Below are positions 1 through 63,439 of a stretch of DNA of 64,000 nt, piece after piece. This stretch comes from Chrysaora quinquecirrha. Taxonomy: Eukaryota; Cnidaria; Scyphozoa; Semaeostomeae; Pelagiidae. Numbering within the stretch: the first letter of the stretch is position 1; each line of letters opens with the position of its first letter. The DNA is taken from positions 4,797,478 to 4,861,477 of the forward strand of contig JACTAT010000016.1 in the NCBI GenBank assembly GCA_014526335.1. Direction: 5' to 3'. The position numbers were made by a program, and so were the translations under genes. Under the pieces are notes generated by a model. That model made no database searches, had not been told where the DNA came from, and saw nothing but the letters and a program-made list of their open reading frames with translations.

Positions 1-879
1 GAATTTTTAAGAAATGAATCGTACGAATGTATTTCGTTTATTTGCTGTTTTGAGGGGCGTCGCTTGGTAGCGAATGTTGCTGAAGATGATATTCTTCATT
101 GTTTTGTCAATGAAATCAATAGAAATCGCAGAGAAACAAACTCGCCAGTTATAGCTCAAGTTATGAGCAAAGTTTCAGTGGGTTTGTCGTTTAGGTATTT
201 ACATGATACGTTCAAACCAACTGACCGGGTTAAAGATACACAATTCTTAAATAGACTACTTGGAAAGATACAACCAGATAGATATTTCTGGGAGAGAAAA
301 CGTGAAAAAGAAATTGATTTTAAGCCAAATGAAATTGACCAAGCTAACATTTGCAATGCTGTTCTACTGGCCAAGAATAATGGCATTAGCGATAAACGCT
401 TGAGAAGTGTTTTTAAAGGTATTCGATTGACTCTGGCTTTGAAATTCATCAAAGTAGTAAAATATGTAGATCTGTTTGATGGAGTTTTTATCACCTTGAA
501 CTATACTAACATATCAGAGGATGAAATGAGACTTTTTGCGGTAAACGCAATTCATTGTCGTTCGGTAACTTTTATGGGGCGTAAATTCATTGGAGAAATA
601 TGGGAAAAATTGTTACAGAGTCTGAAAGACAAAGAAAGTTACCGTTTGCAAGTAATAAATATTTTGGATATGGATGTTGCTGATGGGTCTGTGGAGTTTT
701 TTGCAGAAACACTAACAAGGATAGAAACAGTTAGGTTGCAAAGTATTCGTATCGATGAAATCTTTTGGGTGGAAAAATTACTAAAATGGATATCAATTGC
801 CAAGGAAAAGCAACAATTGAAATTGAAAAAAATCTTTTACGGGGACTGTCCATCCTTGAATAATGACCTAAAGAGAAAG
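1..879 (+). CDS. Partial large exon of host gene, helical/LRR-like (possibly NLR-type) region
   Basis: The frame is open from base 1, so the exon begins left of the window; an internal start at 64 is not needed. About 293 residues are visible. Residues 1-45 (cysteine-rich stretch SFICCFEGRR) resemble the helical region that follows the NACHT domain in NLR proteins. Later residues show amphipathic, LRR-like spacing (LNYTNISEDEMRLFAVNAIH, then CRSVTFMGRKF). No Walker motif, signal peptide or membrane segment is seen. The exon ends in a strong donor, AAAG|GTAAGA, at 879/880 after a complete codon (phase 0). If unspliced, the frame stops at 892-894. The next phase-compatible exon is at 9350. Family assignment is inference from pattern; it could be another helical-repeat protein. 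Confidence 0.5.
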
Positions 880-894
880 GTAAGAAAGTTTTAA

Positions 895-3670
895 TATTTG
901 CTTTAGTCAGTAACATATATTTGCATGATTCCCGTTTATGTCTCTGAAAAAGATCTCTGCTTCGCAGAGGAGACAAGCAATTTCTCCGAGATTGGATTTT
1001 GCTTGATTTTTGTTTGGGATTTTTTCGCTTGAAGCATTTCATGGTAATTGTGTTCAATTTCAGCCAAGTTTGTTATGCATGAGCGATGATATAAAATGAA
1101 ACGTGAAGCTGTTTCACAGTCAAGATCCATTGTGAACAAGTCGACATGCACTTGTTTACAAATAGCACTGAGTCGAACTTAGCTAAGCCTTGGTTTCTGA
1201 TTTCGCAATCGCCGAGGATCGCTGAAGATTTGCGGCGATCATCGGGGATCCACTTTGATACATCTGCCTGTCAATAGAGTGGCATTTTTGGCAAGATAAT
1301 TCCGGGAGAGGACTAAATTTTTTATCTCTTCATTCTGAGACAGGACAGGGGTGTCAGTTAAACTTTTTCCCAGTAACCGACATATTTGTTATGAACAACT
1401 ATTGCACCACACAAAAGAGTGGACAGAAACTGGACTCAAAACTTAGAACATCTGCAAAATATTTTCTTCAAGTAAGGAACACAAGAAGATTTAAAATTGA
1501 TCTCAGCAAGGTAATGTGAGGCCCAAAAAATTTCTGCTAAGCATATCCACGTTGTTTTTCCAAGGACAACACCTGGGTTAACGATCAAATGGAAACTGTA
1601 CGTCAAAATTTCGATAGTTGAAGTTTGAATAGAAACAGGCCAGAGATCGCAAATGATCTCTAGCGATCAAAATATCTCATAATGCATAGTACATTGCCAC
1701 AGCAGAAGGAACATAAAAAGAACAAAAGATTCGTGTTGAACCACCAAATGTCTTCAAACAACAAGAAGCGTGACAAAGCCAATTTCATGAAAGAGAAGAG
1801 TCGAAACAATGTTATTGTAATAATGATAAATTGAGCAAAGAGTTTATATATATTGGTATCAGAAAATAAGTTGCAGGAAAAGCTTTAGAAGAATAAGTTA
1901 TGGCCTGCCCTACCATATCCGAGGGGTGTTTATCCGAAAATTCCTGCTAATCGACTGAAAACCGCAAGAATCCTTGACTGCTAATAAGTGAAGTCCTTCA
2001 AAATTCAATGAAAATCCTTTCTAGAATCTCAAAAGCTCCTTAAAGGTCAACAAAGAAAATCGCAATATCTTTACCAGTCTACCAGGCACAATTGGCAGTC
2101 AACCTTTTCCTAATTTTTCCGGCTCTAAACCTCTGCGCTTACGCGTGTTACGTATTGGACAACAGTTTTCTCCAAAAGTTTGTGAATAGCTTCAATTTGA
2201 TAATCATTTTATGAAATTTAAAATCCTCAAAATCCCGAAATTGCCAGAAAGTTTCTAGAAAAAAACTTGAAAATCCAGCCTGATTTATAGGGGACTTTCA
2301 AAACTTTAGCCATTTTATCATGTGAAACACTCCTCGGCAATTTAAAAAAAAATACGAAAGCATAAATTTCCTAAGCAATGTGTCAACAATCCTCAGCGAT
2401 CCAGAGCACCAGGGATCGTCAGCAAGCGCAAACGATTGTAACGATCGTCAGATTTGCAAAATCGCCATGAACGATTATGCAAGTTTGACATTTTAATGAC
2501 CTCTGTCCGGCTGGTCTCCAAAGCTGAATAAAACGCCTTTTATTTTTCTATGCATTTGATTATGATTATGATGACGATGACGATGATGATTTAACTCTCA
2601 TCGAAAGAAAACGAGATTAACGGATAGAATCCGGTGAATTTGGTGGTTAGAAGAAAGAGGTAGCTGTATTTGCGACGAGTATTCTGGTTGTACTGGATAT
2701 GCAATTTTATAGTTATATTCACTGCCCAGAGTATTGTTTCTTTTGTTGGATTAAATTATAGTAAATGTGTCGTGTACTAGTCTCGGAAAACAAGGATTGA
2801 AGCACCAAAAATGAGCGTAAGGATATATCATTACCATGCCGTAAGAAGGTCCAGCAAAATCAAAAGAAAACACGAAGCAGGCAAAAGAGACATAGGTAAA
2901 CAATGTTGATGTGAACAGCCACATATTAATGAATGCCCAGCGAAATTTAAAGCTTTTGCAAATTGCCAATTGTGAAGACAGTTTTTTCGCCAACCAATGC
3001 TACTCATAATTCACACGCAAAAATAAGAGGAAGCCTCTCGAAGAAAACAGAAAGACAACAGAATCAGAATCCGAAGTTTAATATTGTTACTCAATTCATA
3101 GAAAGACAACAAAGCACCGAACTGCAATTATCCAAGTGGTGCACATTACATGACAAGTTCAAATTCAGCATCTTCGTTTCAGTGTTGAGGCAAATTTTTA
3201 CGCCTCTAGTCCTTACAATGTCGATTTTATAATGATTAAAAGTTTGAAAATTTGCAAAGGTTTTGACCGCAAAAAAATGACTGAGGGTGTTAAATTTCAC
3301 CCCGAGCGATTTTTCACGGTAAAGCCTTAATAAATTTGCAAACTTCTTTCTAATCGCTTGCCTCAACACGAAAATGAAGGTGCTCAATCTGAATCTAGGG
3401 TCAAAATGTTTGTACGAAAAAATTCTCGTAAATTTTGAAAACGAGGCTCTAAGTTGAAAAGGTGTATTAGGATTAATCAGCTTTCATCTGAATACCTTAC
3501 AGATGAATAAAAGCTGAGATGGTGGAGTTATGGAACAAGTCAAAACTCTGGACCCTGGAGTCAAGAAGATTTTTATGTATATGTTCGATTTTACGTATAT
3601 GTTTTCAAAAGTGATCACGCGATTATGATCGCTTCATTGTGCCTTGAAAGATTTGCAAGGAATATTTTAC
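895..3670. other. Intron sequence without recognisable gene
   Basis: No supported coding region. It contains GATCG-rich stretches near 1200-1280, 1640-1670 and 2385-2475, the first and last being partly inverted relative to each other, and a short GATGAC-type microsatellite near 2560-2595. Short ORFs here have no family resemblance and are treated as chance. It lies in the proposed first intron (880-9349). Confidence 0.5.
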
Positions 3671-9349: not shown

Positions 9350-9380
9350 ATAAGGAAAGCTGGTGTGGATGTTAGAGAAG
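9350..9380 (+). CDS. 31-bp exon, phase 0 in / phase 1 out (phase adapter)
   Basis: Preceded by a pyrimidine-rich acceptor (GGTTTTTTCCTTTCTAG at 9333-9349) and followed by the donor GAAG|GTAAGA. Read in phase 0 it encodes IRKAGVDVRE with one base left over. It therefore joins exactly to the phase-0 donor at 879 upstream and to the phase-1 acceptors downstream; read in phase 1 it would hit a stop. Its length, splice signals and unique phase fit are the evidence; no transcript is available. Alternative: a chance combination of splice sites. Confidence 0.5.
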
Positions 9381-13309: not shown

Positions 13310-15760
13310 GCAAACTGCTTGCAAACAGTGCTTTGTTTAGCATAGTTAAAACTCCCCAAACTTGATAAAGTCATTCGGGCGCTAATGTTTAACTGCCCTC
13401 TCCTTTCCATTATTTCATCCGCACTATAAATGTTCCTTTTTGCTCTGTTAATAAGACAATCTGCCAACACGTTGCTTTCTTTGTCCCAATTCTTAATGCT
13501 TTACAATGTTCTTTTTTCCCCCTCTTTGAATTTCTTTATATCCTCTTCCTCAATTAATTTGGTAATTTTATTTGGGAAAAACTCCTATTTACGCTTTTCA
13601 TTATGCCTCCCCAGATTTTCTGTATAGCTACGATTTCACATGTTTCTTTTATGTTATATTTTTGCGTTTAGGAATTCCCTTCCGGTCGAATTTTATCATT
13701 GTTTGAATGATATGTAATCTAATCCTTTGGGTCATCGTTTTTCGTACATTTTATTTCGTGGAATCTAAAATCATTTTTCTTCCGATTTTTGTTTTTAAAT
13801 TTCATACATCTTGTGCTGTGCATCGCCGTGAGGGATTCACTGACATTGTAGTGCATGTAATAACACAACCTTCTTTATTCTTATGTGGCTTATTGCTTGG
13901 GATTTGAATAGGCAGGGGCTAAGACTGCATTTAGGATCTTATTGTTGGGGATGTTGAAATAGAGAGGGGTTGGTATTGTATGCAGAATGGATACAAATAG
14001 GGTATTAGGGTTCTTCCTATTACACTACTTATAAGCTTAGGCAATTCATAGTTACATGAAACGTAGTAGACACATAATTGCATTGAGCATGCGAATTAAC
14101 CCCATATATCAATATTTTTAAGCCTTTGTTAAATTTTTACGTTTGAGTGTTTGGATTTTACAATAATTTCTTATCCTCACGTGGCCTCGTACACTATACT
14201 GAGTTTGCTGCTTATCCTCATAAAGAATTTATTGACATAGTAGCCCACATCATAACATATCACCCTTATTCTTATGTGCCTTTTTGCTGTTGAGTGCATT
14301 CAGGATCTAATTGGTGGTGGAGGAATTTGTAGGCAAGATTGATTCAGCTAGGAGATTCAGTAGACACTTGAAATTTCACAGAAAGCAGGTCATTGCAAAT
14401 TGAAGAAATATCAAAACCAGTGTTAATGATTTCGTTAACTAAGGGAATCCTAAAAAGAGCAAGTAAGCGGGGGACGGTAGTTAGACACCTCAGTGTATTG
14501 TTGGCCATTAACATTCATGCTGTCTATTATACGTGGTGCTTATCGTCATGTGGTATTCTCTTAAGAGAAGTTTATTAAAGGCCATAGTTCGGCCATACAA
14601 TAAGGGCGTTATTTTGCTTGATAAGACACATTGCTTCCCAGTAGAACTGCTGAACATCTATTCAAACATAACCGGACCACTAACTTTTCTCAAGACAACT
14701 CTATTTCAAATACCAATAGCTTGTTTGCGCATTAATTCGTTAAAATTGTCATGTACAGCTATAAAATCTTGCCAAAATTGGAAACACCATGCTCTTGTCA
14801 TGTTTCATCTTTAAAAAATCCAGCTTTACAATAACATACTTGGATTAATAAATCCTTCTCGCCTAACTCAATGTTTGGGCAACTGATAATATCAAATTTC
14901 CAGGAACGAGTTTGAGAGGGGATTAGGCGACTTTGAGCTAGTAGCATTAGCAAGGGTAACATCTCATAAGTTGTAAGGCGTTCTTTCTACGTTTTGTAAA
15001 AATACTCTGTAGATTTTCTGTCCAATTGATTGTTATTTTCCTACTGATTGCATTTATTGTCATTGTCATATTCATATTTATATAGGTGCTTGTTAGCAAT
15101 GCTGTGTCTTTTTCGTATACTGTGAATCATTCGAAACAGCTATTGTAGATAAATTTTCCTTAGTTTTTGTAAATAACATTTTCATCAGAAGCAATCTAAT
15201 TCATTTTTCCTTGTCTTTTTTCAGATCCTTTCCTAGGTAAGTGTGCATTTTTATCAAATTTCTTGAATTAATAAAAAGTTTTCTTAAGTAGGCTTTTACA
15301 AAAAAAGCAATAACCGGTTTTCTGACTTATTCTTCGATTGTTTATGCTAAAAGGTAACTTGCTGTTTAAACTCATTTGTACAAACCTATTGTCGAGAGAA
15401 AATCATTTCTGGTGAACTTCATTTTTGTATTCCTTGTACTTCCATATCGTGATAAATTTTGATAAGGTAAGGATACGAAATGTGTGAAGAATATGACGGA
15501 CGTATCATTTATTGATATTAGCATTGGTATTCATATTCATTTTGACATATCATATTCATTATTATTATTTTTGTGCACTCCCAATGTTTATTACAGCAGT
15601 TTTGAAAATAGTAAGGATACAAGAATTAGATTATTGTTTAAGATGCTCAGATTGACTTTGGTATTCATACATTTCTTCACAATTGATATTTTTTTATATT
15701 CATTTTTATACTTTTGTTGTGTGTATATATTGATTTAACCTGCTGTGTTACAATGGAAAT
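13310..15760 (+). repeat. Intronic duplication unit U1 (contains the 12-bp exon)
   Basis: Parts of this stretch match other introns of the window. 13360-13600 matches 30850-31140 (GTCATTCGGGC.CTAATGT, then TTGCTTTCTTTGTCC). 14480-15460 matches about 28150-29330, including the segment around each micro-exon and a downstream AAGGTAACTTGCTG. Divergence is substantial, so this is an older duplication than those at 43-52 kb. Confidence 0.6.
15225..15236 (+). CDS. 12-bp micro-exon (peptide DPFL)
   Basis: Acceptor TTGTCTTTTTTCAG and donor CTAG|GTAAGTG flank 12 bp. In phase 1 it completes a GAT codon and encodes DPFL, leaving one G. It is thus a symmetric phase 1-1 exon that can be skipped without frameshift. 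The conserved upstream element AGAAGCAATCTAATTC lies at about 15188-15203. Its neighbours in the model are the 31-bp exon and the 15-bp exon. Confidence 0.5.
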   Translation: MLS

Positions 15761-17216: not shown

Positions 17217-17218
17217 TA

Positions 17219-17715: not shown

Positions 17716-17984
17716 CAGAAAACAAAAATTAAAAAACTTTACTTTTTCAAGTCAACACTCCAGTCATTGTCACTTTCTGCATCAGAAATAGCGTATTGTT
17801 CGTTATCCTTATTCTCGCAGTTGTCGCATTCACAAAGGTTGGTGCAAGACAGCGCACGTTTCATGCAATTGCATCTTTCAGTTCCATGTTTCATACATTG
17901 CAACTACATTCTACCAGCTCCACAATGTCATCTGGATATACATGCTGCTGTCTGTCACTGTCAGCTTTCATGAAATATTTCCAC

Positions 17985-20545: not shown

Positions 20546-20547
20546 TA

Positions 20548-27245: not shown

Positions 27246-27279
27246 TGGGACCCGCCGTACGCCCTAATTTCACCTCGCC

Positions 27280-28009: not shown

Positions 28010-29500
28010 TCGTTTGAAATTTTATGCAAAGAGTAATCTTCATATAACTGCTTAATTGCATTGAGAGATGCTTTTTATTCAACCAGTGTTAGAAGTATGA
28101 GCCTGAGATGCAATTTAAATTAGTCAATGTAATTAGTTAGGGGAGCAGCGATTTGGCATCTAAGGGTATTGTTCATTCTGTCTATTACACATGATGTTTT
28201 TATCATGACATTTTCATTTACTTTCTCTTGATAAAATTCTCTTAAAGGCTCTACCTAGTTCCATAGGTTAGCTTTTCAGTTAAAGCGTTATTATAATTTT
28301 CTCGCAAAACTACTGATCATCTTAAATCATTATGAGAAGACCAATCTTATATCAAACACCAATAACTTTTTTGCGCAATAATTCATAGACATTGTCATGT
28401 ACAACTACATTTCTTGCAAAAATATCTGGAACACCTAGTTGTTTGTAGTTTAACCTTAAGAAAACCCGACTCCAATATAACATAATGTAAATGGCGTACA
28501 AATCCCCCTCCCCTGACTTGCAACTAACAATATCAATTTCACCACCAATGAGTTTGGGGAATGGAGTATGCAACCTTAGGGTGGTAATTTCGAGTAAAAT
28601 TCCAGCCTTTCTGGCTAGAATTTTAGCTTATGTTGGTTTCATTCAGTATGGAACTTTGTCCGGGAATATATTTACATTCGAAATTCCTTGCCGAATATGA
28701 TACAGTCTTGGCATATTTGGAGTATATAATACACACACGTAATCGGATTCAAAGGGGCAATACCTCGCCAGTTATAGCCCTTTTCACTCTTTTTAAGAAA
28801 TGCCCTTCGGATTATTAATTAGCATTTTCCTGTTGATTTCTTTCATTGTCATTTTCCTGTTGATTCTGGATTCTGGCATTATGGTCAAGGCTCTTGTTGG
28901 CAATTCTGTTGTTTTTAATTGTTTCTAATGTAAACCATATGAGTTTTTGATCAACAAAGCTTGTAATTACTTTTGCCTTAACTAAATATTTGTCCGGCTA
29001 CATTGCTTATTATAAGCAACAGATTGTCTTCTAATAAATTTTTCTTAATATATTTTAATACAAGGATCATAAGAAGCAACCTAATTCTGTTTTTCCTTTT
29101 TTTTACAGGATTGCCACTTTATGGCAAGTCTGCTTTCCTATTTAATTTTAGTGAATGATACTTATACGAAAAAGTATAGAACAAGTTTTGCAACCTTTTT
29201 TATACCTTTTCTGCGTAAGGTAACTTGCTGCATGAATTCATTCTTCGGAGCAGCGAAATATTGTCCAGGTGAAGGATTGAGACATGACTGTTGAACTTCA
29301 TGTTCGTATTGTTGGTACCTCCTTTCCGTAAGAACATAAAAGTATGCGTACCGAGCGTATCAATAATATGACCGATATATCAGTAATTGATATTTGCATT
29401 GGTACTGTTGGTACTCATATTTCATATTGATATATCCTATTTTTATTATTAGTATTGCTTGCACTCCTATTTTTTTATTACATCAGTTTTGCTTAGCCCT
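28010..29500 (+). repeat. Intronic duplication unit U2 (contains the 15-bp exon)
   Basis: Matches U1 and, in its 28705-28860 part, 41463-41610 (TTTGGAGTATAT...ACACACACGT.ATCGGATT). Order is preserved around the micro-exon. Confidence 0.65.
29109..29123 (+). CDS. 15-bp micro-exon with GC donor (peptide GLPLY)
   Basis: Acceptor TTTTCCTTTTTTTTACAG; the exon ends TTTATG and is followed by GCAAGT, a GC-AG type donor that otherwise matches consensus. In phase 1 it encodes GLPLY and leaves one G, so it is again symmetric 1-1. The element AGAAGCAACCTAATTCTG lies at about 29074-29091. Its position in a duplicate of the 15.2-kb unit supports it as an exon. Confidence 0.45.
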
Positions 29501-35208: not shown

Positions 35209-35229
35209 AACCAGAAGCATGGCTTTTAG
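35209..35229 (+). CDS. 21-bp micro-exon (peptide EPEAWLL)
   Basis: Acceptor TTATTTTCCTTCTTTTAG; donor TTAG|GTAAGTT. In phase 1 it encodes EPEAWLL with one G left over (symmetric 1-1). An ATAAGCAACAATATAATCCTG element 20-40 bases upstream is a diverged form of that preceding the other micro-exons. Confidence 0.5.
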   Translation, partial: NQKHGF

Positions 35230-41234: not shown

Positions 41235-41897
41235 GGGACTGGGTGGATACGGAAATACAAAACACCTCGTGACCTCAGCGTTAACGCCCATTTGCGCATG
41301 CGTAGAATGTTACATAAAAATATTGAATAAACCTGAGCGATGATTACAGCAGTACCTGACTTCGCAGCAAATTATACGAGTTTGACAGTGGCGGAACGGT
41401 TGCTAACACGTCACTAAGCAAAATCGCATCAGCCAATCAACAGCGATTTCTGGTTTAAGAGGTTTTGGCATATTGGGAGTATATGTGATACACACACGTT
41501 ATCGGATTAGAAGGGGCAATAACTTCCCAGTTATAACGCTTTTAACTCTTTTTGAGAATTTCACTTCGGGTTATTTATTAGCATTTTCCTGTTGATTTCT
41601 TTCATTGTCATATTCATATTCATAGATTCGGGATTCAGTATTGAAGGTCCGGGCATTCTGGTCTAGTCACTTGTTGGCTGTTGTTTTCTTTATTGTTTCT
41701 AATGTAAACCTTTTGAGTTTTTTTATATACAATTCTTGTAATTAGCTACTTTTCGTACGGCTACATTGCTTATTATAAGCAACGGATTGTTTTCTAATAA
41801 ATTTGTCTAAATACGTTTAAAGACAAGGATCATAAGAAGCAACCTAATTGTGCCATGATCATGATAAGAGTTTTCCGTGTGCAGGTTGACGGCCGCT

Positions 41898-42864: not shown

Positions 42865-43852
42865 CTAAGCTCATTCTAATTCGCTCTGTCCAACATAACA
42901 CTTTTTATGTTTTTTTCATTTAACATTTCCTGAGAACGTAAGGCTCTACCCAGTGCCATAAGACAGCTCTTTGATCAAACTATGGTGTTATTAAAATTGA
43001 TTGATCTAATAATCAATTGATTATTTAGTTGATCAGACACAGTTCCACTCCTAGCTTTCCCAGAAGAACAAACCTTCAAATTTCATAAAAAAACCCTTTG
43101 ATCTTTGGTGGCCTTCCTGACAAGTGTTTTTCTATTGACTACGATATATCTTAGCACTTTTATCTGCTTTAGTTTCTTGTTTTCCTTTGGCTTATGACTT
43201 GTTAGTTATTTTCTTTTTGGATTTTAAAACCTTTTTCTTGCATTGGTTTGTAAATATTTTCCAAAGGGTAAACTAGATAAACTAGATAATAGTGTAGAAT
43301 AACCTTGTAAGAAGCTTTTTATTGAGCTAGCGACAACATATTGGTCTTTATCTTTGTACCATAACATGTGATGTTCTGCTTGTTATTGTATTTAGCAGAT
43401 CAATGTAACCTAAATGTCATTGTTAAGTCTATGTGAAAGTTTTACCTTCTGTTCTGTTTGATAGCATGTCAATTGCGGGGGGGGGGGGCAAAGGAAGCGC
43501 AAATACGTTTGATTTGCAGATTATTGCTTCATTTCCAGACGCACTGTGTCAATATTTCCAATACAGAGACAATATATAGTGCTGTTAATGTACGAGTGAA
43601 AACGTCACATATAATTTAGTGGCTCTACTATCTTTATTTGAGGCATGATACACTATATTGGCTTTGTTGCCTTAGCCTCCCTGTTGTCAATTGACATCAC
43701 AGTCCATATGATTTCATCCTCATCTTAGCTCATTCTTATCCGTTCTATCCACATCCTATTGTTTTTATTTTTTATGATGTTTTCATTTAACCTTTTCTAG
43801 AAGTGAAAGGCTCTAGAAGCAATCTTATTCTTTATTCCTTGTTTTTTTGCAG

Positions 43853-43885
43853 AGCGACGTAGACAACGTAGACAAGAATTGGATG
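43853..43885 (+). CDS. 33-bp micro-exon (peptide ERRRQRRQELD)
   Basis: Acceptor CTTGTTTTTTTGCAG, donor GATG|GTAAGTG. Symmetric phase 1-1, open, encoding ERRRQRRQELD: strongly charged and helix-prone. The upstream element AGAAGCAATCTTATTCT lies at 43816-43832. It lies in a 4.1-kb block duplicated at 48.7-52.9 kb, where the paralogous exon is at 49523. Confidence 0.65.
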
Positions 43886-45203
43886 GTAAGTGAGCTTTCA
43901 AAGAACTTCTTCTTAAATTTCTTTTATAAATTGAAAGTCCGAAAGCTAATACGAATAATACGAATAATCATATGACAAATTATCCGCCCTTTTTGACAGT
44001 TTCTACTCGATATCGCATACTGTTTGCATTCATTATATAAACCAGCAATCTATTGTCCGGCAAATATTGGATAGATACCTTTCGAGTAAACTCCATAATT
44101 GTATTGTTAGTTTTTCTTTTTCATTGCATAGTTTTTCACTTAAAAATAATTTAAAATTCGTATTCGTATTGATGGTTTTATATCGATGATGTTGTTTTTA
44201 TGTTCATATTGATTTTCTTAGTAACGATTTTTATGAGCTTTCTTATCATCATTCTTGTTTTAAAAAAAATTATGAGGGATGTGAAGTACAGCAAGGGTTA
44301 TTATGACGTTTTAGAAAATATAAGGACACGACGAATATGAACAACATAATCAGTTCATCCTGTTAAAATTCATGCATTCACACTTTGATTCACATTTATA
44401 TCATATTCACACTCTTTTTCTTATCTATATGTATGTAGTGTGAACTTAAAACGCTAGCAAGAGTGCGACTAGTATTGTGTTAAAGTAGTTTCAATAGCTT
44501 GGATGCCGCGTATGTGTCTCCGCAGCTTTTCAATGCTTGGTCCTACCTCTTCCTGTTTTAACTTCATTACTTTGAATATATCGAAAAATTCCTGGAAGCT
44601 GTGTACTTCTGTAAACTGGTGAGTCAGTGCTGTTTTTATGTAAAGAATTTGAAAATGTGTGCAATTGGCAGTGAAATCGCTACTAATAGCCCGAAAAAAA
44701 CAACGAGTTCAGTGACTCATTTCCAATCATTTTTTATTTTCAGGCCGGTCTTTTAGAATCTGAATTAATTGGGTTGCATCAATTTTTTCTGATCGAAGAA
44801 AATTCTCGAAGCATCTCATAGTACATAAAAAGAGTATTTTGCGTTCGGTACAGCACAATGTTAGAACAAAGAAGAATAAAAATAAATATTGTAGCAGTTG
44901 AAATTTTCTTATATCAAATAAACGACGTTTCGAGCATGAACTCGTTATCAAGTGGTGAAATAACGGAAAAATATAAAGGTATATCAAAAGAATAGCGATT
45001 TGAAAAATGGAAAAAAAGAAAAATAAAAAGGACGCAAGATACAATGCCCCGTGATCTAAGTTAGAGTACATAAATACAAAGACAAGAAAAATGTTTATTT
45101 AGTCCACCAGGATTCAGATTCATCTCATAGTCCACTTACGAAGAAAGATATGGTGACTCATATAAACCATTCCTCCCTCCGGGTTGCTACTTTGAGACCT
45201 CTG

Positions 45204-45577
45204 CACGTTTTTTTTTTATAAGAAAGTTTTTTTGGGCCATTATTGAAACTTTCTTAGATATTTCATTATTTCAGTACCAAAACTTTCTTGTGACTTTCTT
45301 AGCAAAAATTTTGGAATGCAGTATTTCTAAAAATGCACAGTTTAAGGGAGTGTATACATTGTAAATACCACGTTTTTCAAAGAAAATAATCATTAGAGTC
45401 GTTTAACAACAAGATGAGCGACTGAACAGAAGAGCGAAAATAACACAGAGAGCATTAGGAGTGAAAGTATGAGAAAGAACTTTCTTAAGTTTCAACAATC
45501 CAGTATTGAACTTTCATAAACTTTTAAGATGCTGAGCACTACTTTCTTATAAACCACTTTCTTATAAAAAAAACGTG
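45204..45577. mobile_element. MITE with CACG-T10 inverted ends, copy in block A
   Basis: Ends CACGTTTTTTTTTTATAAG and CTTATAAAAAAAACGTG. 374 bp, rich in ACTTTCTTA repeats, no ORF. Related in ends and size to 23020-23391. It inserted before the segmental duplication, because the same copy is at 50869. Confidence 0.8.
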
Positions 45578-46872
45578 TATAACTTGTTGTGGAGTAAACT
45601 ATAATGTAGTGTTCACAAGCCATATCTTGTTAGAAACAACAGGTGAACCTAGTGCCAAGGACAGTTCTCGTTTGAATACACATTTTTTCTGGTCTCTTCA
45701 AATAACTGTTTTACTTTTCATGTTTAACATTGAATGCTTTCAAAGTCCTGGATACCATAATTATAAGTTTGAATCTTAGAGGTGATTCTGTGTCCTTGTG
45801 TTTGCTCCATAAAGATTTTCTGTAATTTCTCTATGTACCAGTTTCGTGAGCTATGAATTTCTCTCCACTTTCAATAAATTTGTGCACATCAGTAGGAGGA
45901 CTGTTTTTTTCATTTATCATTCAATGATGGGTTTTTTAACTGCTTAAAGTATTGTAGCTATCATCGTGTTGTATTGCATTGTATGATATCTTTCTTAATT
46001 TCCCCCCCCCCCCATTTTAAATTCCGGTTAGCAGTTTTTTTAGTTTGAGGCCTCCTGTTTCGGTCAATTTTCCTTAGCGAGCGTGCTTAGCGTTTTCCGT
46101 AGACAGTTGGTGTCCGAGATGCTGCGGGTTCTTTTTGATACAGGGGATGCCACCCTGATAGGTATAGAAACGTTTTAATACATTTGCAGAATCCCATTAT
46201 TCTTGATTGAATTTGCTGCATTTGTTTTCGTCTCTGGCCCCTGTGTTGTGGTTTCTAAAACGCAATGCAGACACATCAGATTGCAGTTCTGTTTCTCTAG
46301 ACATATCATCTGGATAAGAAAAATTTGTTTCTGCAGTTTTTCTTGCTATTGGAACAATAATGTTGAATTGCTCAATCCCAAAAGTTATAGTTTCTGTTTC
46401 TGTTTCATTTTGTACTGTCGCTGTTTGGTGTTGCATCTTTATGTTTCTTATTTACATGTCGTTTTAAACCTGCTTCGTCTTGCAAACCTTTGTACACTTA
46501 AAACCTTTATAATCATCGATTTCAGCCTGGGACAAAAAGATAAATATCTTAGTATGATCTTGGGCAATTAACAGAACTATTACCACATTACAAAAAATAT
46601 TCCAGAGGCCCGAGTGAGTCCCTTCGCCTAAGGCTAAGCAATATCACGAAAATTATTTCCACGTTTAAATTCATTTCAACTTACCTCATTATCAAATTTC
46701 TGTTTGCAAATTTTCTTCCAACTCCACAGCTTGAAGAATTGCATCGAAATTCTCCTCAGAAACCTCAAAAAACCTTCTCTAAGGATATCTGGAGGATATC
46801 CTTTGAGAACGTGGCCTTTTATTTTTGTCGACCATGATCATTATAAATTTCATTTCCAGGTTGACGGATGTT

Positions 46873-46882
46873 GTCACGTGAC
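46873..46882. promoter_or_regulatory. GTCACGTGAC palindromic E-box, unit copy 2
   Basis: Same palindrome, about 1.5 kb upstream of the 48409 exon. Confidence 0.4.
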
Positions 46883-48408
46883 GAGTAAATTTAACATGCA
46901 TTCAAATTTCATTAAAAACCCTTTGATGTTTGCTGGCCTTCCTGACCAGTGGTTTTTCAATTGACTACGATACATCTTAGCACTTTCTCTGCTTTGGTTA
47001 CTTGTTTTTCCTTTGGCTGATGACTTGTCAGTTTTTTTCTTCGTGGAAGTTGAAGCCTTTTTCTTGTGCAATTGTTTGGAAATCTTTTACACAGAGTAAA
47101 CTAGATACCACTGTAGAATAACCTTAAAAGAAGCTTTTATTGAGCTGGCGGCAACATATTGTTCTGTATCTTTGTTACAACATGTGATGTTCTGCTTGAT
47201 ATTGTATTTTGCAGTTAGATGCACTCCTAATGTCTTTGTTAAGTCTAGATAAAATTTTACCTTCCGCTTAGTAAGTAAATCAGTTGGGTCAAAGGAAAAG
47301 TAAACACGTTCCATCTGCAGAATATTGCTTGATTTCCAGACGTACCAACTGTGTTAATATTTCCAATACGAATGCATCATTTAGTTCTGCGCATGTACGA
47401 GTGAAAAACGTCACATATAATTTCCTTATTTGAGGCATCATACACTATATTGACATTGTTATCTTAGTAACCTCGTATCAATTGATTGAGACAATAGTTC
47501 ATATGATTTATCTTCATCTACGCTCATTCTAATTCTTTCCGTCCAACATAACATTTTTTATGTTTTTTCGTTTAACATTTCCTGAGAACGTAAGGCTCTA
47601 ACTAGTGGCATAAGATAGCTCTTCGATCCAACTATGGTGTTATTGAAATTTATTCATCAAATGATAGATTGATTATTTGGTTGATCAGACACATTGCCAC
47701 TCCTAGCTTTCCCAGCAGAACAAGCCTTTCAAAGAAAGCGAATTCCTTTAGGAAAGGCCCTGCTACTGAACATCTTTCATCATTAAATTGAGTTTAAGTA
47801 GCTTGATGAACAGCTTTTCTGATGACCACTGTAACACCAATTACCATGGTATGTATGTTACGAAGAAATGATACGATTAGCCGGGATTATGTAACGGAAG
47901 TTTTGACGCATTGAACTCTTTGTATTGTAATTTTCCTGTTGACTTCTTTCATTTTCATCATTCCTTCATGTTGCTAGTTATTGGTATTCTGATTTCAGTG
48001 CTTCTGTCCCAGGCTCCTCTTGCTTCTATTGTGAACCATTTGAGTTCCTTTTCAACAATTCTTGTAGTTACTTTTGCCCTGAATAATCATAAGTAGTACA
48101 GCCACCCAATCCAAAACTTTGAGGTGCTTCAGTGTGCTAGTGCATGATGCATGAAGTTTTTTTTGTACTTGACAGTAGTGCAGGGGGTCACTGAAATCTG
48201 CAAATCCGCGATGTATTACTTCACGATCCTACATTTGGGCATTCTGGTCTAGGTTCTTGTTGACAAGAATGTTTTTGCTTACACTGTGAACCGTTTGATA
48301 AGTTTTTGATCAACAAATCTTGTAATTGCTTTTGCCATGAATAAATACTGTAAGCATAATAGCATGATCACAAGAAGCACCCTAATTCTGTGTTCCTTTC
48401 TTTTGCAG

Positions 48409-48432
48409 AGCAACGTAGACAAGCGGAAGAAG
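48409..48432 (+). CDS. 24-bp micro-exon (peptide EQRRQAEE)
   Basis: Acceptor GTTCCTTTCTTTTGCAG, donor AAG|GTAAGTG. Symmetric phase 1-1, open; encodes EQRRQAEE. Preceded by AGAAGCACCCTAATTCTG at 48373-48390. The downstream 60 bases of intron are nearly the same as those after the 61485 exon, showing common origin. Confidence 0.65.
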
Positions 48433-48689: not shown

Positions 48690-49522
48690 GAGTAAATTCA
48701 GCATGCCTTCAAATTTCATAAAAAAACCCTTTGATCTTTGGCGGCCTTCCTGACAAGTGTTTTTCTATTGACTACGATATATGTTATAGCCCTTTTCTCT
48801 GCTTTAGTTTCTTGTTTTCCTTTGGCTGATGACTTGTCAGTTATTTTCATCGTGGAAGTTGAAGACTTATGACTTGTTGGTTATTTTCTTCTTGGATTTT
48901 GAAACTTTTTCTTGCATTGGTTTGTAAATGTTTTCCAAAGGGTAAACTAGATAAACTAGATAATAGTGTAGAATAACCTTGTAAGAAGCTTTTTATTGAG
49001 CTAGCGACAACATATTGGTCTTTATCTTTGTACCATAACATGTCATGTTCTGCTTGTTATTGTATTTAGCAGTTCATTGTAACCTAAATGTCATTGTTAA
49101 GTCTATGTGAAACTTTTACCTTCTGTTCTGCTTGATAGCATGTCAATTGCGGGGGGTCAAAGGAAACGCAAATACGTTTAATTTGCAGATTATTGCTTCA
49201 TTTCCAGACGCATTGTGTCAATATTTCCAATACAGATACAATATATAGTGGTGTTAATGTACGAGTTAAAACGTCACGTTATAATTTTGTGGTTTTACTA
49301 TCTTTATGTGAGGCATGATACACTATATTGGCTTTGTTGCCTTAGCCTCCCTGTTATCAATTGACATCACAGTCCATACGATTTCATCCTCATCTTAGCT
49401 CATTCTTATCCGTTCTGTCCACATCCCATTGTTTTTATTTTTTTATGATGTTTTCATTTAACCTTTTCTAGAAGTGAAATGCTGTAGAAGCAATCTAATT
49501 CTTTATTCCTTGTTTCTTGCAG

Positions 49523-49555
49523 AGCGACATAGACGTCGCAGACAAGAATTGGATG
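49523..49555 (+). CDS. 33-bp micro-exon (peptide ERHRRRRQELD)
   Basis: Acceptor CCTTGTTTCTTGCAG, donor GATG|GTAAGTG. Symmetric phase 1-1. Paralogue of 43853-43885, with four substitutions in 33 bp, two of them changing residues (R to H, Q to R) and none disrupting the frame. Preceded by AGAAGCAATCTAATTCT. Confidence 0.65.
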
Positions 49556-50868
49556 GTAAGTGAGCTTTCAAAGAACTTCTTCTTAAACTTCTTTTATAAA
49601 TTGAAAGTCCGCTTATGAAAGCTAATACGAATAAGCATATGACAAATTATCCGCCCTTTTTGACAGTTTCTACTCGATGTTTGCAATGTTTGCATTCATT
49701 ATATAAACCAGCAATCTATTGTCCGGCAAATATTGGAAAGATACCTTTCGAGTAAACTCCATAATTGTATTGTTAGTTTTTCTTTTTCATTGCATAGTTT
49801 TTCACTTAAAAATAATTTAAAATTCGTATTCGTATTGATGGTTTTATATCGTTGATGTTGTTTTTATGTTCATATTGATTTTCATAGTAACGATTTTTAT
49901 AAGCTTTCTTATCATCATTCTTGTTTTAAAAAAAATTATGAGGGATGTGAAGTACAGCAAGGGTTATTATGACGTTTTAGAAAATATAAGGACACGACGA
50001 ATATGAACAACATAATCAGTTCATCCTGTTAAAATTCATGCATTCACACTTTGATTCACATTTATATCATATTCACACTCTTTTTCTTATCTATATGTAT
50101 GTAGTGTGAACTTAAAACGCTAGCAAGAGTGCGACTAGTATTGTGTTAAAGTAGTTTCAATAGCTTGGATGCCGCGTATGTGTCTCCGCAGCTTTTCAAT
50201 GCTTGGTCCTACCTCTTCCTGTTTTAATTTGATTACTTTGAATATATCGAAAAATTCCTGAAAGCTGTGTACTTCTGTAAACTGGTGAGTCAGTGCTGTT
50301 TTTATGTAAAGAATTTGAAGATGTTTGCAATTGGCAGTGAAATCACTACTAATAGCCCGAAAAAAACAACGAGTTCAGTGACTCATTTCCAATCATTTTC
50401 TATTTTCAGGCCAGTCTTTTAGAATCTGAATTAATTGGGTTGCATCAATTTTTTCTGATCGAAGAAAATTCTCGAAGCATCTCATAGTACATAAAAAGAG
50501 TGTTTTGCGTTCGGTACAGCACAATGTTAGGATAAACAAAAATAGAAATAAATATTGTACCAGTTGAAATTTTCTTATATCAAATAAACGACGTTTCGAG
50601 CATGAAATCGTTATCAAGTGGTGAAATAACGGAAAAATATAAAGGTATATCAAAAGAATAGCGATTTGAAAAATGGAAAAAAAGAAAAATAAAAAGAACG
50701 CAAGATACAATGCCCCGTGATCTAAGTTAGAGTACATAAATTAAAGTTAAGAAAAATGTTTATTTAGTCCACCAGGATTCATATTCATCTCATAGTCCAC
50801 TTACGAAGAAAGATATGGTGACTCATATAAACCATTCCTCCCTCCGGGTTGCTACTTTGAGACCTCTG

Positions 50869-51239
50869 CACGTTTTTTTTATAAGAAAGTTTTTTTGGGC
50901 CATTATTGAAACTTTCTTAGATATTTCATTTTTTCAGTACCAAAACTTTCTTTTGACTTTCTTAGCAAAAATTTTGGAATGCAGTATTTCTAAAAATGCA
51001 CAGTTTAAGGCAGTGTATACATTGTAAATACCACGTTTTTCAAAGAAAATAATCATTAGAGTCGTTTAACAACAAGATGAGCGACTGAACAGAAGAGCGA
51101 AAATAACACAGAGAACATTAGGAGTGAAAGTATGAGACAGAACTTTCTTAAGTTTCAACAATCCAGTATTGAAATTTCTTGAACTTTTAAGATGCTGAGC
51201 ACTACTTTCTTATAAACCACTTTCTTATAAAAAAACGTG
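50869..51239. mobile_element. MITE with CACG-T8 inverted ends, copy in block B
   Basis: Paralogue of 45204-45577 at the equivalent position; shared flanks show duplication with the block, not a second insertion. Confidence 0.8.
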
Positions 51240-52529
51240 TATAACTTGTTGTGGAGTAAACTATAACGTAGTGTTCACAAGCCATATCTTGTTAGAAACA
51301 ACAGGTGAACCTAGTGCCAAAGACAGTTCTCGTTTGAATACACATTTTTTCTGGTCTCTTCAAATAACTGTTTTACTTTTCATGTTTAACATTGAATGCT
51401 TTCAAAGTCCTGGATACCATAATTATAAGTTTGAATCTTACAGGTGATTCTGTGTCCTTGTGTTTGCTCCATAAAGATTTTCTGTAATTTCTTTATGTCC
51501 CAGTTTCGTGAGCTATGAATTTCTCTCCACTTTCAATAAATGAATGCACATCAGTAGGAGGACTGTTTTTTTCATTTATCATTCAATGATGGGTTTTTTA
51601 ACTGCTTAAAGTATTGTAGCTATCATCGTGTTGTATAGCATTGTATGATATCCTTCTTAATTTCCCCCTGTTTTAAATTCCGGTTAGCAGTTTTTTTAGT
51701 TTGAGGCCTCCTGTTTCGGTCAATTTTCCTTTGCGAGCGTGCTTATCGTTTTCCGTAGACAGTTGGTGTCCGAGATGCTGCGGGTTCTTTTTGATACAGG
51801 GGATGCCACCCTGATAGGTATAGAAACGTTTTAATACATTTGCAGAATCCCATTATTCTTGATTGAATTTGCTGCATTTGTTTTCGTCTCTGGCCCCTGT
51901 CTTGTTGTTTCTGAAATGCAATGCAGACAAATCAGAGTGCAGTTCTGTTTCTCTAGACATATCATCTGGATAAGAAAAATTTGTTTCTGCAGCTTTTCTT
52001 GCTATTGGAACAATAATGTTGAATTGCTCAATCCCAAAAGTTATAGTTTCTGTTTCTGTTTCTGTTTCATTTTGTACTGTCGCTGTTTGGTGTTGCATCT
52101 TTATATTTCTTATTTACATGTCGTTTTAAACCTGCTTCCTCTTGCAAACCTTTTTACACTTAAAACCTTTATAATCATCGATTTCAGCCTGGGACAAAAA
52201 GATAAATATCTTAGTATGATCTTGGGCAATTAACATAACTATTACCACATTACAAAAAATATTCCAGAGGCCCGAGTGAGTCCCTTCGCCTAAGGCTAAG
52301 CAATATCACGAAAATTGTTTCCACGTTTAAATTCATTTCAACCTACCTCATTATCGAATTCTCTTTTGCAAATTTTCTTCCAACTCCACAGCTTGAAGAA
52401 TTGCATCGAAATTCTCCTCAGAAACCTCAGGAAACCTTTCTATCTGGAGAATATTCTTAGAGAACGTGGCCTTTTGTTATTGTCAACCATGATCATTATA
52501 AAGTTTTCACTTCGGGGTTGACGGATGTT

Positions 52530-52539
52530 GTCACGTGAC
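52530..52539. promoter_or_regulatory. GTCACGTGAC palindromic E-box, unit copy 4
   Basis: Same palindrome. It was upstream of the 61485 exon before the BEL/Pao insertion. The fifth unit copy, at 62561-62570, has one mismatch (GTCACATGAC). Confidence 0.4.
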
Positions 52540-52861
52540 GAGTAAATTTAACATGCTTTCAAATTTCATTAAAGACCCTTTGATGTTTGCTGGCCTTCCT
52601 GACAAGTGGTTTTCAATTGGCTACGATACATCTTAGCACTTTTTTCTGCTTTGGTTTCTTGTTTTCCTTTGGCTGATGACTTGTCAGTTCTTTTCTTCGT
52701 GGAAGTTGAAGCCTTTTTCTTGCAATGGTTTGGAAATCTTTTACAGAGAGTAAACTAGATACCACTGTAGAATAACCTTGAAAGAAGCTTTTATTGAGCT
52801 GGCGACAACGTGTTGGTCTATATCTTTGTACCATAATATGTGATGTTCTGCTTGATATTAA

Positions 52862-53149: not shown

Positions 53150-53240
53150 AAGTAGCACCCCAGATGGGAGAATCGTTAACAATGTAACATCAAAGATATA
53201 CATCAAGAGAAACAAACTTTATTCAAGGGAGAGAAGAAAC

Positions 53241-56190: not shown

Positions 56191-57010
56191 TAACTCACTT
56201 GGTCTTGCGTCACCAATAACATTGAATGGGAAAAAGGTCTACCGAGCTATATGCGACGAAAATATACCATGGGAAAAAGAGGTTCCAGACTTCATACATA
56301 AACAGTGGAAGACGTTCCTGAAGACTTTACCGTCAGAGGTTGAAGTGCCACGCAGCATTGTAGCCTATCAGAAGCAGATCGAAGCAATCGATTTGCACGT
56401 ATTTGGTGACACGAGTGGAACAGGAACCGCAGCGGTCGTCTATGCAGTTGTGCATCAAAAGTCAGGACTAAGTCAGGGACTTGTAGCTGCGAGATCTCGC
56501 TTAGCTAAGAAAGGATTGACGATTCCAAGACTGGAACTCGTTTCTGCTCATATGGCGTCGAATCTGGTAGAGAATGTCAAGGATGCGTTGGAAGGACTGC
56601 CATTCCGAAAAGTAACCGGCTGGCTTGACAGTTCGGTAGCACTACATTGGATCAGAGGGAACGGTAATTACAAGCAATTCGTGGCGAATAGAGTAAGAAA
56701 GATTCAAGAGAAAAGTTTTATCCAATGGCGTCACGTACCAACCGAAGAGAATCCTGCTGATGTAGCTAGCAGAGGAGCAGTATCATCGAAGTTAGGAGAA
56801 ACCTGGTGGATTGGACCTCATTGGTTATCTGCAACAGAGCAATGGCCAGACGACATAGAAACAGAGCCAAATACAGATACTGAAGCAGAAGCTAAGCTAA
56901 CTAAGCAGGTTCTAGCAACAAGCATAGACAGAGAAGATCTAATCATGAAACTCCTCGAGAAGCACAGCTTTTGGAAAACGATACGCATCTGTGCTTGGAT
57001 TTCACGCTGA
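56147..57010 (+). pseudogene. BEL/Pao RNase H domain
   Basis: Contains VFGDTSGTGTAAVVYAV, IPRLELVSAHMASNL and GWLDSSVALHWI, giving the expected acidic residues, then PTEENPADVASRGA. It ends where a ~25-bp tandem duplication (GATACGCATCTGTGC repeated at about 56981 and 57009) introduces a stop. Confidence 0.85.
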
Positions 57011-57029
57011 TACGCATCTGTGCCTGGAT

Positions 57030-58515: not shown

Positions 58516-58570
58516 CTACATTTACAACGTAATCAATATTTGCTCTCTGCGACAACAAATAGGGGGAGTG

Positions 58571-59042
58571 TGTCGAGAATTCGAGAAGATTCCAGAACAT
58601 TCAAGGCTTGCGAACAATCTAAAAACATTAGTAACTTAGCTTTAATCCTTTGATTTTCAGCATAATCAGCTATCGCGTATTTATAGATCGCCATTTAGGC
58701 CTAATCTTCATAGTAACCATGTAGCCTCCCTTTCGAAATTAGCCCCAGAATGATTCAGCTTCTAGAAGCTAATGGACTTTACAAGAACTTTCTAGGGTAC
58801 TAAAATTGGCTAGATTGTAATGATGATTTTCACGTAATTATCTTACAAATAGAACATTAGTTACAAATAGTATATAAGCAAACAACGGTAGAATGCGTAG
58901 TGGTAAGTTGTGAGTTGTGAACACAGAGAACTGTGAGCTGCGAATTGTGAGTAGTGAATTAACTTCGCTGAGACTATATACGCTCAAAAGTATTATTTCT
59001 GAGAGGTTTATTGTCGCGGTTAACAGTATCTAATTCCCGACA
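58571..59042 (+). repeat. 3' LTR (472 bp)
   Basis: Runs from TGTCGAGAATTC to CCCGACA (TG...CA termini), preceded by a purine tract AAATAGGGGGAG at 58556-58567 that would prime plus-strand synthesis. Contains TATATAAG at about 58872 as a likely promoter element. Confidence 0.9.
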
Positions 59043-60392: not shown

Positions 60393-61484
60393 TATTTATT
60401 CATTTTGCTAGATTTTGGCATCCTTGCTTCTGTGGCAGGCTCTTCTTTTTCCCATGTCAACAATTGGAGTTCTTTTTAAACAAAAATTTTAGTTACTTTT
60501 GCCCTGAATAAACACTGACGGTAGGACAACAGTGCTGGTTATATGCTAGTCATAATTGACTTTCGATTCGATTCCATTAATCTATACCTGGTTTGCTATT
60601 TTCTTCGAGATCCTGGCTTATCGTTCGTTTTCATTCTATTGATTTAAAATCCTTTTTCTTGCGATCTTTTTTTTTAAGTTTTAAGCAAAGACTAATTTAG
60701 ATATAGCCGCGTAGCACCCTGGCTATTGCCATTGTCCCGTTCATTTGTTTTAATGGCATTGTCATATTCATATTCATATTGCTAGATTCTGGCATCCTGG
60801 CCTTGGTTCTTGCTGGCAATGACCTTTTTTGCTTACAATGTGGGCGGTTCGATATAGTTATTGATCAACCAATCTTGTAATTGCTTTTGCCATGAATAAA
60901 TTCTGTTAGCATAATAAGGTGATCAAAAGAAGCAACCTAATTCTGTGTTCTGTGATAGGATTAGCCTGGATAATGCAAGTTTTGACGCATAGAAATCTTT
61001 GTATTGTCATTTTCCTGTTCACTTCTTTCACTTTCATCATTCATTCATGTTGCTAGATATTGGTATTATGTTTTCAGTGCTTTCGTGCCAGGCTCTTCTT
61101 GTTTCTATTGTGCACCATTTGAGTTCCTTTTCAACAAAACTTGTTGTTACTTTTGCCTGAATAAACACTAGTAGTACAGCAATCTAATTCAAAACTTTGA
61201 GGTGCTTTAGTGTGCTAGTGCATGATGCATGAAGTATTTTGTACTTGACAGTGGTGTTGGGGTCACTGAAATCCGCAAATCCACGATGTTTTACTTCATG
61301 ATCCTAGATTTGGGCATTCTGGTCTAGGTTCTTCTTGGCAAGGATGTTACTTTCTTACACTGTGAACCGTTTGATATAGTTATTGCTCTACAAATCTTGT
61401 AATTGCTTTTGCTTTAAATAAATACTGTTAGCATAATAACAACATGACCAAAGGAACCTAATTCCATGTTCCTTTCTTTTCCAG
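60393..61484 (+). repeat. Two partial intronic units, one lacking its exon
   Basis: 60760-60955 ends in the pre-exon element (AGAAGCAACCTAATTCTGTG at 60929-60948) but then continues into GATAGGATTAGCC, a position that lies elsewhere in the unit (compare 47873 and 59452). 61000-61480 repeats 47920-48400 almost fully and leads into the 61485 exon. Confidence 0.7.
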
Positions 61485-61508
61485 AGGAACGTAGACGAGA
61501 AGAAGAAG
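61485..61508 (+). CDS. 24-bp micro-exon (peptide EERRREEE)
   Basis: Acceptor GTTCCTTTCTTTTCCAG, donor AAG|GTAAGTG. Symmetric phase 1-1, open; encodes EERRREEE. Paralogue of 48409-48432 (8 codons, same flanks). The upstream element is shortened (AAAGGAACCTAATTCC). Confidence 0.65.
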
Positions 61509-61509
61509 G

Positions 61510-63400
61510 TAAGTGAGCCTTGCAAAGATCTTCTTATAAAATTTCTTTCACAAATTCAAAGTTTCCATATGTAAGCTAGTACGAAGAAACGCACAATACT
61601 TTAAATCAACATATCAGCAAAAGAGAAGCGCAAGCCTTCTTGAAATCTGAAATAAATAGAAGAAGTTTACGAAAGTGTCTGTCAACATGACAATCATTTA
61701 TGGGCTGTTGGAATTTTCTGTTCAAAAGGCTTGACGTCAGACAAATGACACTGATTTATCAGATCAGACTATTAGTTCATTAACTTTTTTATGTTCTTAC
61801 CGTACTTTGGCAATCACAATATTCCTCTTTTATTAAATGCGTCTTGCTATTACTAAACGGGAGAATAAGAAAATTACTGTATAAACCGGTTAAGAAATAA
61901 TTGCACAAGACTGCAGGTGCAAAATTACGCGCATATAGCTACTATATCATAGAACTATCTGCAACCTCATATCTGCGGTATTTTTCATATTGCCCCTTTT
62001 AGTAATTACTAAACGGGGGAATCTGGGAATACAAAAACTTTGAGATATGGATTTGAAAACAATTCAACAAGATAGTGAATGCTAAGAAATCGGTATATAC
62101 AGTAAAAAGAATACTCTCACACTCATTTTTGAAATTATTGCCTTATTCTTCGATTCCTTTCCCGATTCCCCGTTCCTCTAGCAATGTTTTACTCTAGCAA
62201 ACATTTTTGCATTTACTGTAAACCATTTATAATCATCAGTTTCAAATTGGGACCAATAGAGAAACATCTTAGTATGATGTTAGACAATTTACAGAAGTAT
62301 TACTGAATTACAAAAATAATTCAGGATCTCAAGCGAGACCATTGGCCTAAAGCTTAGGAATATCACCAAAATTATGTCAACGCTTAGATTCATTTCAACT
62401 TACCTCATCATCCAATTAATTTTCAAGCTTTCTTCCAACTCTACAGTTTCGAGAATTGCAACGAAATTCTCCTCAGAATCCTCCAAAAATAGTTCTATTT
62501 GAGACGTTATTCTGGAAGAACGTCGCTTTTGATTGTTCCGTGTGCAGGTTGACGGATGCTGTCACATGACGAGTAAATTCAACATACTTTCAAACTTAAT
62601 AAATAAATCCCTTTTATCATTGGTGGCCTTCCTGACAAGTGTTTTTCTATTGACTATTATATAACTCAGCACTTTTCTCTGCCTTAGTTTTTTGTTTTCC
62701 TTTAGCTTATGACTCAGATATTTTCTTTTTCTGGAATTTTAAGCCTTTCTCTTGCAATCTTTGTCTGGACATCTTGTAAGCTAGATACTGCTGTAAAATG
62801 ACCTTAAAGGAAGCTTTTAATTGAGCTTGTGACAACATTGGCCCACATATTTTTACCATAACGTGTGAAGTTCTACTGATTATTGTGTTCAGCTGTTATA
62901 TTGACATTGTTGTCTAAGCATTCTCTTATCGATTGATTGACATCACATTCAATAAAATTTCTTCTCCGTCTTAGCTCACTATTATTCGTTCCGTCAAATA
63001 TCACATTGCTTTTATTTTCTATGATAGTTTCGTATAACCTTTCGTCAAAGTGAAAGGCTTGAACTAGTGCGTGGTACTCTGCGTGTGAATTGCACTTCAG
63101 ATTTTCTCTCCTTTGGATTTTCCCTTTTCTGTTGATTTCTTTCGTTTTGCTTTTCATCATTTCTTCATGTTGCTAGATTTTGGCATCCTCATTTCAATGC
63201 TTCTGTGCCAGGCTTATTTTTGTTCCCATTGTGAACCATTCAAGTTTTTTTTCAGCTAATCTTGTAATTACTTTTGCCATACTGGCAGTACACCAATGCT
63301 AATTATAGGCTAGAACTTACTGACTTTTGATAAATTTTCTTTTACCAGTTTAAAATACAGGATGATAAGAAGCAACCTAATTCCTAATTCCTTGTTTTTT
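61510..63400 (+). repeat. Intronic unit between the last two micro-exons
   Basis: 62220-62400 matches 46500-46680, 62420-62480 matches 46725-46785, 62545-62660 matches the E-box block and 63370-63405 the pre-exon element. It is more diverged than copies A and B. Near-repeat CTAAACGGGAGAAT/CTAAACGGGGGAAT lies at 61855 and 62013. Confidence 0.65.
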
Positions 63401-63405
63401 TGCAG

Positions 63406-63439
63406 CTCGACGTGTACCATCGTGTACGATCATTTGATG
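63406..63439 (+). CDS. 34-bp degenerate micro-exon or terminal coding exon
   Basis: Acceptor CTTGTTTTTTTGCAG and donor GATG|GTAAGTG are intact, and the sequence aligns with the 33-bp exon type. It is one base longer and in phase 1 reads ARRVPSCTII then TGA at 63435-63437. It could be a dead exon that is skipped, or give the C-terminus when included; the stop is within a few bases of the junction, so decay by NMD would not be expected from this junction. Confidence 0.4.

Follow-up and report, generated by a model that had tools for sequence, protein, structure and literature searches.

In the micro-exon genes (MEGs) known from schistosomes and tapeworms, many exons of 6-81 bp follow one another; most are multiples of three, long introns lie between them, and they can be skipped without frameshift (PMC10526429, PMC7653826); a gene is counted among them when it has at least seven exons, at least half of which are shorter than 70 nucleotides (nt) and divisible by three, with a run of at least four (PMC7653826). 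The bicycle genes of aphids have many very small internal exons as well, nearly all starting at codon position 2, and diverge fast (PMC9168663). I describe a stretch of 64,000 nt from the scyphozoan Chrysaora quinquecirrha (hereafter the window, C146:4797478-4861477 of a 328-Mb assembly; contig JACTAT010000016.1), which probably represents the 3' stretch of an NLR gene, one of several whose C-terminal tail would be built from skippable, fast-diversifying micro-exons.

Rows of tiny exons with lengths divisible by three, long introns and skippability are common to the schistosome and tapeworm genes and to the window array. The predicted gene model, which is incomplete, has seven such exons among nine up to 61485, all seven in a run. 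The MEGs of Schistosoma mansoni, however, share an N-terminal signal peptide, encode secreted proteins and have exons mostly of 15 bp, whereas the window exons measure 12-34 nt and come after a large NACHT exon. With the bicycle genes the window exons have their phase in common (codon position 2 being intron phase 1), a likeness that is not evidence of kinship; bicycle genes encode putative gall effectors in aphids, whereas the window micro-exons follow an NLR exon. The preliminary description of this DNA had likened the array to the logic of schistosome micro-exon genes; the likeness holds, but micro-exon genes are not confined to schistosomes, as tapeworms (PMC7653826) and the aphid bicycle genes (PMC9168663) illustrate.

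A further parallel is offered by NACHT receptors whose repeat region consists of modular leucine-rich repeat (LRR) exons, such as NLRP3, for which alternative splicing of the LRR domain has been reported (PMC6642158). The window exons differ from these in being only 12-33 nt long, far below one LRR unit, as well as in being hypervariable and present in many duplicates. Dscam arrays encode parts of immunoglobulin domains and are subject to mutually exclusive choice. The window cassettes resemble them in being tandem homologous exons and differ in that they are tiny and could all be included together; in Dscam1, alternative exons are combined in an immune-linked gene (PMC5465998). No micro-exon arrays joined to NLRs were found among titles and abstract starts in a partial coverage of the literature, and two papers on fungal NLRs (PMC4986451, PMC10197012) use the word "microexons" once each. 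Invertebrates need to distinguish many kinds of microbe or neighbour, and the source of the variety in their NLR families is an open question. If RNA data confirm it, the array would be a new way to vary the tail of an immune receptor, placing micro-exon architecture in a receptor instead of a secreted effector. Since gene finders and aligners readily overlook exons of 12-33 nt, annotated NLR proteins might lack such tails; moreover, the length and phase of the modules are conserved while their content is not, therefore positive selection or a local diversity mechanism is directly testable by resequencing.

A splice-site scan run without a prior exon list (generic metazoan weights from general knowledge, GT donors, exons of 6-36 nt) yielded eight micro-exon pairs with a score of at least 22 on the plus strand, against a mean of 0.05 and a maximum of 1 in 60 dinucleotide shuffles, and none on the minus strand of the window. 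The eight comprise six of the seven exons listed in the preliminary description, plus the exons at 9350 (31 nt) and 63406 (34 nt); the seventh, at 29109, is not among them because of its GC donor, and its acceptor is the best-scoring one on the whole plus strand. All seven were present exactly at the coordinates and with the lengths proposed, their splice signals proved real (GTAAGT donors in six, GCAAGT at 29109), and phase 1 turned out to be the only phase in which all seven are open together, in agreement with the symmetric 1-1, skippable logic put forward for them (Table 1). That list had left out the 34-nt exon at 63406-63439, at the very end of the interval it covered; this copy, with its in-phase TGA, is possibly a terminal, poison or non-coding exon and may offer an alternative protein end. 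The array was also correctly seen as such, but its upstream NACHT/NLR exon (partly at 1-879) and the 0-to-1 exon at 9350 had been missed. The predicted tail reads IRKAGVDVRE-DPFL-GLPLY-EPEAWLL-ERRRQRRQELD-EQRRQAEE-ERHRRRRQELD-EERRREEE, and variation of the protein by skipping of its micro-exons is plausible; the earlier interpretation as a whole is partly supported. For the four Arg/Glu-rich exons of the window, a conservative-replacement test did not reach significance (phase 1, P 0.07-0.36), and Rfam gave no match at gathering scores.

Table 1. Features of the window and array clusters in the genome (window positions unless a contig is named)
Feature	Position	Strand	Evidence or remark
3' part of large NACHT/NLR exon, ending in phase 0 at GTAAGA	1..879	+	donor score 10.5
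31-nt connecting exon, leading from phase 0 to phase 1 (IRKAGVDVRE)	9350..9380	+	open only in phase 0
12-nt micro-exon, phase 1-1 (DPFL)	15225..15236	+	splice signals, cassette family
15-nt micro-exon, phase 1-1 (GLPLY), GC donor	29109..29123	+	splice signals, cassette family
21-nt micro-exon, phase 1-1 (EPEAWLL)	35209..35229	+	splice-pair scan, pairwise cassette test
Upstream cassette part without exon	41650..41852	+	flank alignment, profile search
Segmental duplication, first copy, carrying exon 43853	43073..47203	+	94.5% over 4191 columns
33-nt micro-exon, phase 1-1 (ERRRQRRQELD)	43853..43885	+	splice-pair scan, flank alignment
24-nt micro-exon, phase 1-1 (EQRRQAEE)	48409..48432	+	splice-pair scan, flank alignment
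Segmental duplication, second copy (~4.2 kb), carrying exon 49523	48706..52859	+	
33-nt micro-exon, phase 1-1 (ERHRRRRQELD), duplicate of 43853	49523..49555	+	duplication alignment
Upstream cassette part without exon	60785..60952	+	profile search
24-nt micro-exon, phase 1-1 (EERRREEE), paralogue of 48409	61485..61508	+	duplication alignment
34-nt exon, same family, in-phase TGA near its end (ARRVPSCTII*)	63406..63439	+	
Six array clusters on C146	near 4.80, 4.98, 5.14, 5.35, 6.34 and 6.72 Mb	- for 6.34	
Seventh array cluster, on C467	near 6.28 Mb	-	

When their surroundings are aligned, the eight exons, 63406 included, belong to one cassette family. In a leave-one-out profile search seven of the eight cassettes were recovered by the other seven, and for the eighth, 35209, the upstream match to 29109 was reached by none of 500 shuffles in a pairwise test. 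In each cassette the exon is preceded by a part with a AAGCAAYCTAATTCT..TTCCTT tract and followed by one which in most cassettes starts with GTAAGTGAG. A second duplication, of 87% identity, holds 48409 and 61485, and three further partial upstream matches were picked up by the profile search in the window; similarity of the flanks of exon 9350 to the family was looked for and not found. In the upstream flanks (e.g. window 49478-49522) the pattern AAGCA..CTAATTC....TTCCTT is almost unchanged among seven aligned cassettes. It exceeds the usual branch point and pyrimidine tract and may be a signal that serves the splicing of very short exons.

The kinship of the exons bears on a statistic of the preliminary description, according to which seven lengths would all be multiples of three by chance about once in 2000 (1/2187). 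That argument fails because the exons are paralogous copies of one cassette and not independent, and it had omitted the 34-nt copy; counted by independent lineages, five of six are multiples of three (P = 0.018). The argument from the frame becomes strong again through the genome-wide set of cassettes. Genome searches with two cassettes led to at least 27 and at least 31 places, clustered on C146 and C467. All 27 of the first search and the 21 full ones among the 31 of the second (ten partial matches, each of 107 bases or fewer, being left out of the count) make up, with the remaining ones from the window and a paralogous gene described below, a set of 54 exon-bearing cassettes, in which the best-scoring splice pair or, in the 15-nt type, alignment to exon 29109 defined the limits of the exon. 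Exon length is a multiple of three in 49 of the 54, an AG acceptor is present in 53 and a GT donor in 53. Among 39 distinct symmetric exons, a stop occurs in none in phase 1, in 13 in phase 0 and in 27 in phase 2. Length is fixed within each type, being 15 nt in 21/21 copies and 24 nt in 18/18.

One could argue that the cassettes are mere remnants of segmental duplication in intronic or intergenic DNA, with strong but unused splice signals and no protein product. They do sit in repeat-rich, duplicated DNA, and among the copies of the family some are without exon, one has a broken acceptor, one is frameshifted and four of 34 nt have a stop. Yet AG acceptors and GT donors in all but one of the 54 each, lengths locked by type, phase 1 open in every one of the 39 distinct exons and variation that, in the 15-nt type, begins and ends at the exon edges (see below) render this explanation hardly credible.

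The 879 nt at the start of the window are the 3' part of an open frame of 761 amino acids, whose start lies 1.4 kb upstream in the genome (position -1391) and which contains a NACHT domain (PF05729, E 8.9e-20 in Pfam), with PDB matches to NLRP3, NLRP1 and NLRC4. Its GIAGIGKS and VLFLIDGLDEL are recognizable as the Walker A and B motifs. For window residues 1-293 no homologues were found in the protein database, and a genome search then revealed a family. No host domain exon emerged from Pfam scans that covered about three quarters of the plus strand and 8-17 kb of the minus strand and gave two weak matches.

NLR exon and array recur together. Gene 2, a recent paralogue of the window gene (gene 1), has a NACHT exon 96.9% identical to that of gene 1, with nonsynonymous and synonymous divergence (dN and dS) of 0.023 and 0.065. 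It repeats the order of gene 1, a 31-nt exon at 4990473 being followed by cassettes of the 15, 21, 24 and 34-nt types, and in both genes the phase chain runs 0, then 0-to-1, then 1-1. Gene 2 lacks the 12-nt exon with about 680 bp around it, has two 15-nt copies, one with a broken acceptor, and two 21-nt copies, and is without a counterpart of 43853/49523 at the corresponding position. A plus-strand scan of 263 kb at a score of at least 20.5 returned 24 open-phase rows, of which 15 are exactly the exons of gene 1 and gene 2, five are alternative boundaries of the same exons and four are unrelated. A third close copy of the NACHT exon, with a broken frame, lies at C146:4966479-4968747, 16.7 kb upstream of that of gene 2.

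Across the genome at least 41 NACHT rows were obtained, some of them fragments of one gene, and the connecting exon has six matches, two of them identical, each of 31 nt and open in phase 0. In five of the seven array clusters the nearest receptor exon is a NACHT match upstream on the same strand, the connecting exon is found in six, and the full order of NACHT exon, connecting exon and array occurs in four, three on the plus strand and one on the minus strand. The arrays might still constitute an independent micro-exon gene, equipped with a promoter and a first exon of its own; that gene would have come to lie downstream of NLR exons by shared duplication and would never be spliced to the NACHT exon. 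The unusually long introns favour such a separation, as do the arrays without a NACHT match of their own. It is nevertheless improbable, given that the large exon has a strong phase 0 donor only 12 nt before its in-frame stop, that the 31-nt exon has phase 0 as its sole open phase and leads out in phase 1, and that the same order recurs in four of seven clusters.

If the arrays are joined to the NLR exons, the large exon, carrying the NACHT domain and a repeat-like C-terminal part and starting upstream of the window, would end in phase 0 at 879, the 31-nt exon would then shift phase 0 to 1, and the duplicated 12-33-nt exons of phase 1-1, spread over about 50 kb, would follow. Splicing would add short modules, at first the mixed peptides DPFL, GLPLY and EPEAWLL, later a charged stretch of Arg, Glu and Gln that is probably helical, and each module could be omitted without frameshift. 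The arrays are likely to gain and lose exon-plus-flank cassettes by duplication and loss, and the content of the modules would change faster than the surrounding introns. Inclusion of the modules may be alternative, and the tail may act in recognition or in the choice of partners.

The exons indeed differ more than their surroundings. Over six pairs of gene 1 and gene 2 exons (35209 being common to two pairs, and a seventh pair, with the broken acceptor, being left out), 27 of 146 exon sites differ vs 114 of 2381 in the +-200-bp flanks (odds ratio 4.5, p 1e-8); in the seventh pair the difference amounts to 3/15 exon sites (p 0.056). Pooled over 30 codons of four such pairs, dN is 0.285 and dS 0.196. 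Among the 21 copies of the 15-nt type, diversity is 0.342 in the exon vs 0.097 and 0.066 in the flanks, a value reached by none of 175 flank windows (column test p 1.5e-6), and variation begins and ends at the exon edges. In the 18 copies of the 24-nt type it is 0.111 vs 0.070 and 0.046, with a peak at codons 2-5. Within the window alone, five pairs were tested and only the two with the 63406 copy are significant.

Silent changes in the micro-exons (dS) also exceed the flank rate, for which small sample size, multiple hits and exchange between cassettes are candidate causes. It can be speculated, doubtful as this still is, that the micro-exons of an array are chosen in combinations, giving many tails per NLR gene, and that some mechanism acting within the exons alone, either strong selection or cassette exchange, renews their letters, since amino-acid-changing and silent exon sites both exceed the intron rate. 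Alternatively, the exons could be real but neutral, and look fast because splicing signals hold the flanks back. The near invariance of AAGCA..CTAATTC..TTCCTT and GTAAGT in the flanks, the raised exon dS, not expected from selection on amino acids alone, and the lack of significance of a column-shuffle test for missing stops (P 0.42, 15-nt type) speak for neutrality. Against it, 33% of the exon sites differ in one pair whose flanks diverge by 2%, and the +-200-bp flanks, at 4.8%, are near the 4.1% of the intron adjoining the NACHT exon; the flanks are therefore not unusually slow, and neutrality seems rather unlikely.

The signals, phase, copy number and divergence pattern of the exons and the NACHT exon upstream on the same strand are direct observations, while an NLR gene with a micro-exon tail, the reading preferred here, has several points against it. 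The splicing of the micro-exons to the NACHT exon in one mRNA is a prediction from the DNA. Neither the C146 5.14-5.16 Mb cluster nor that on C467 has a NACHT match of its own (on C467 one upstream stretch was read, most of it N), the connecting exon was not detected in the cluster at C146 6.76-6.85 Mb, no cassette was found in the 20 kb following the NACHT exon at C146 7.10 Mb, and many NACHT exons are without any array found. The C-terminal part of the NACHT frame gave no Pfam LRR match, its LRR nature being judged by eye from a repeat-like pattern, and two AlphaFold predictions on single sequences were poor (pLDDT 36 and 34). As to the frame, the exons counted share ancestry and are therefore not 39 independent trials, the column shuffle just mentioned lends the missing stops no significance, and five of the 54 exons are 34 nt long: one of these is the 33-nt type with one extra base, hence frameshifted, and the other four (window 63406-63439, C146:5049837 and two further copies, on two contigs in all) share the TGA in phase 1. 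Finally, taken one by one, the pairs of 48409 (2/24) and of 63406 (1/34) do not outpace their flanks.

The window also harbours repeats and mobile elements. On the minus strand, a LINE-type element with a reverse transcriptase (RVT_1) and upstream frames extends over 3872-8001 and has a relative of 82% identity in public data; further reverse transcriptase frames (RVT_1) at 25939-28074 belong to an element which by eye I take to be DIRS-like, and a DDE_Tnp_4 transposase fragment at 38275-39119 is presumably Harbinger-like. A foldback or terminal-inverted-repeat element at 17217-20547 shows as an inverted repeat, its arms some 500 bp long with 94% identity, around 2.3 kb. On the plus strand, a frame at 22140-22601 resembles by eye a Penelope-type reverse transcriptase and has no Pfam match. 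A 36-bp minisatellite of 36 copies (39707-41010) leaves hundreds of codons open on both strands, its minus strand reading as an Arg/Ser-rich unit of 12 residues. Between the micro-exons, at 52862-59040 on the plus strand, lies a presumably BEL/Pao-like retrotransposon with integrase and DUF5641, which has direct repeats some 280 bp long (89.6%) on either side.

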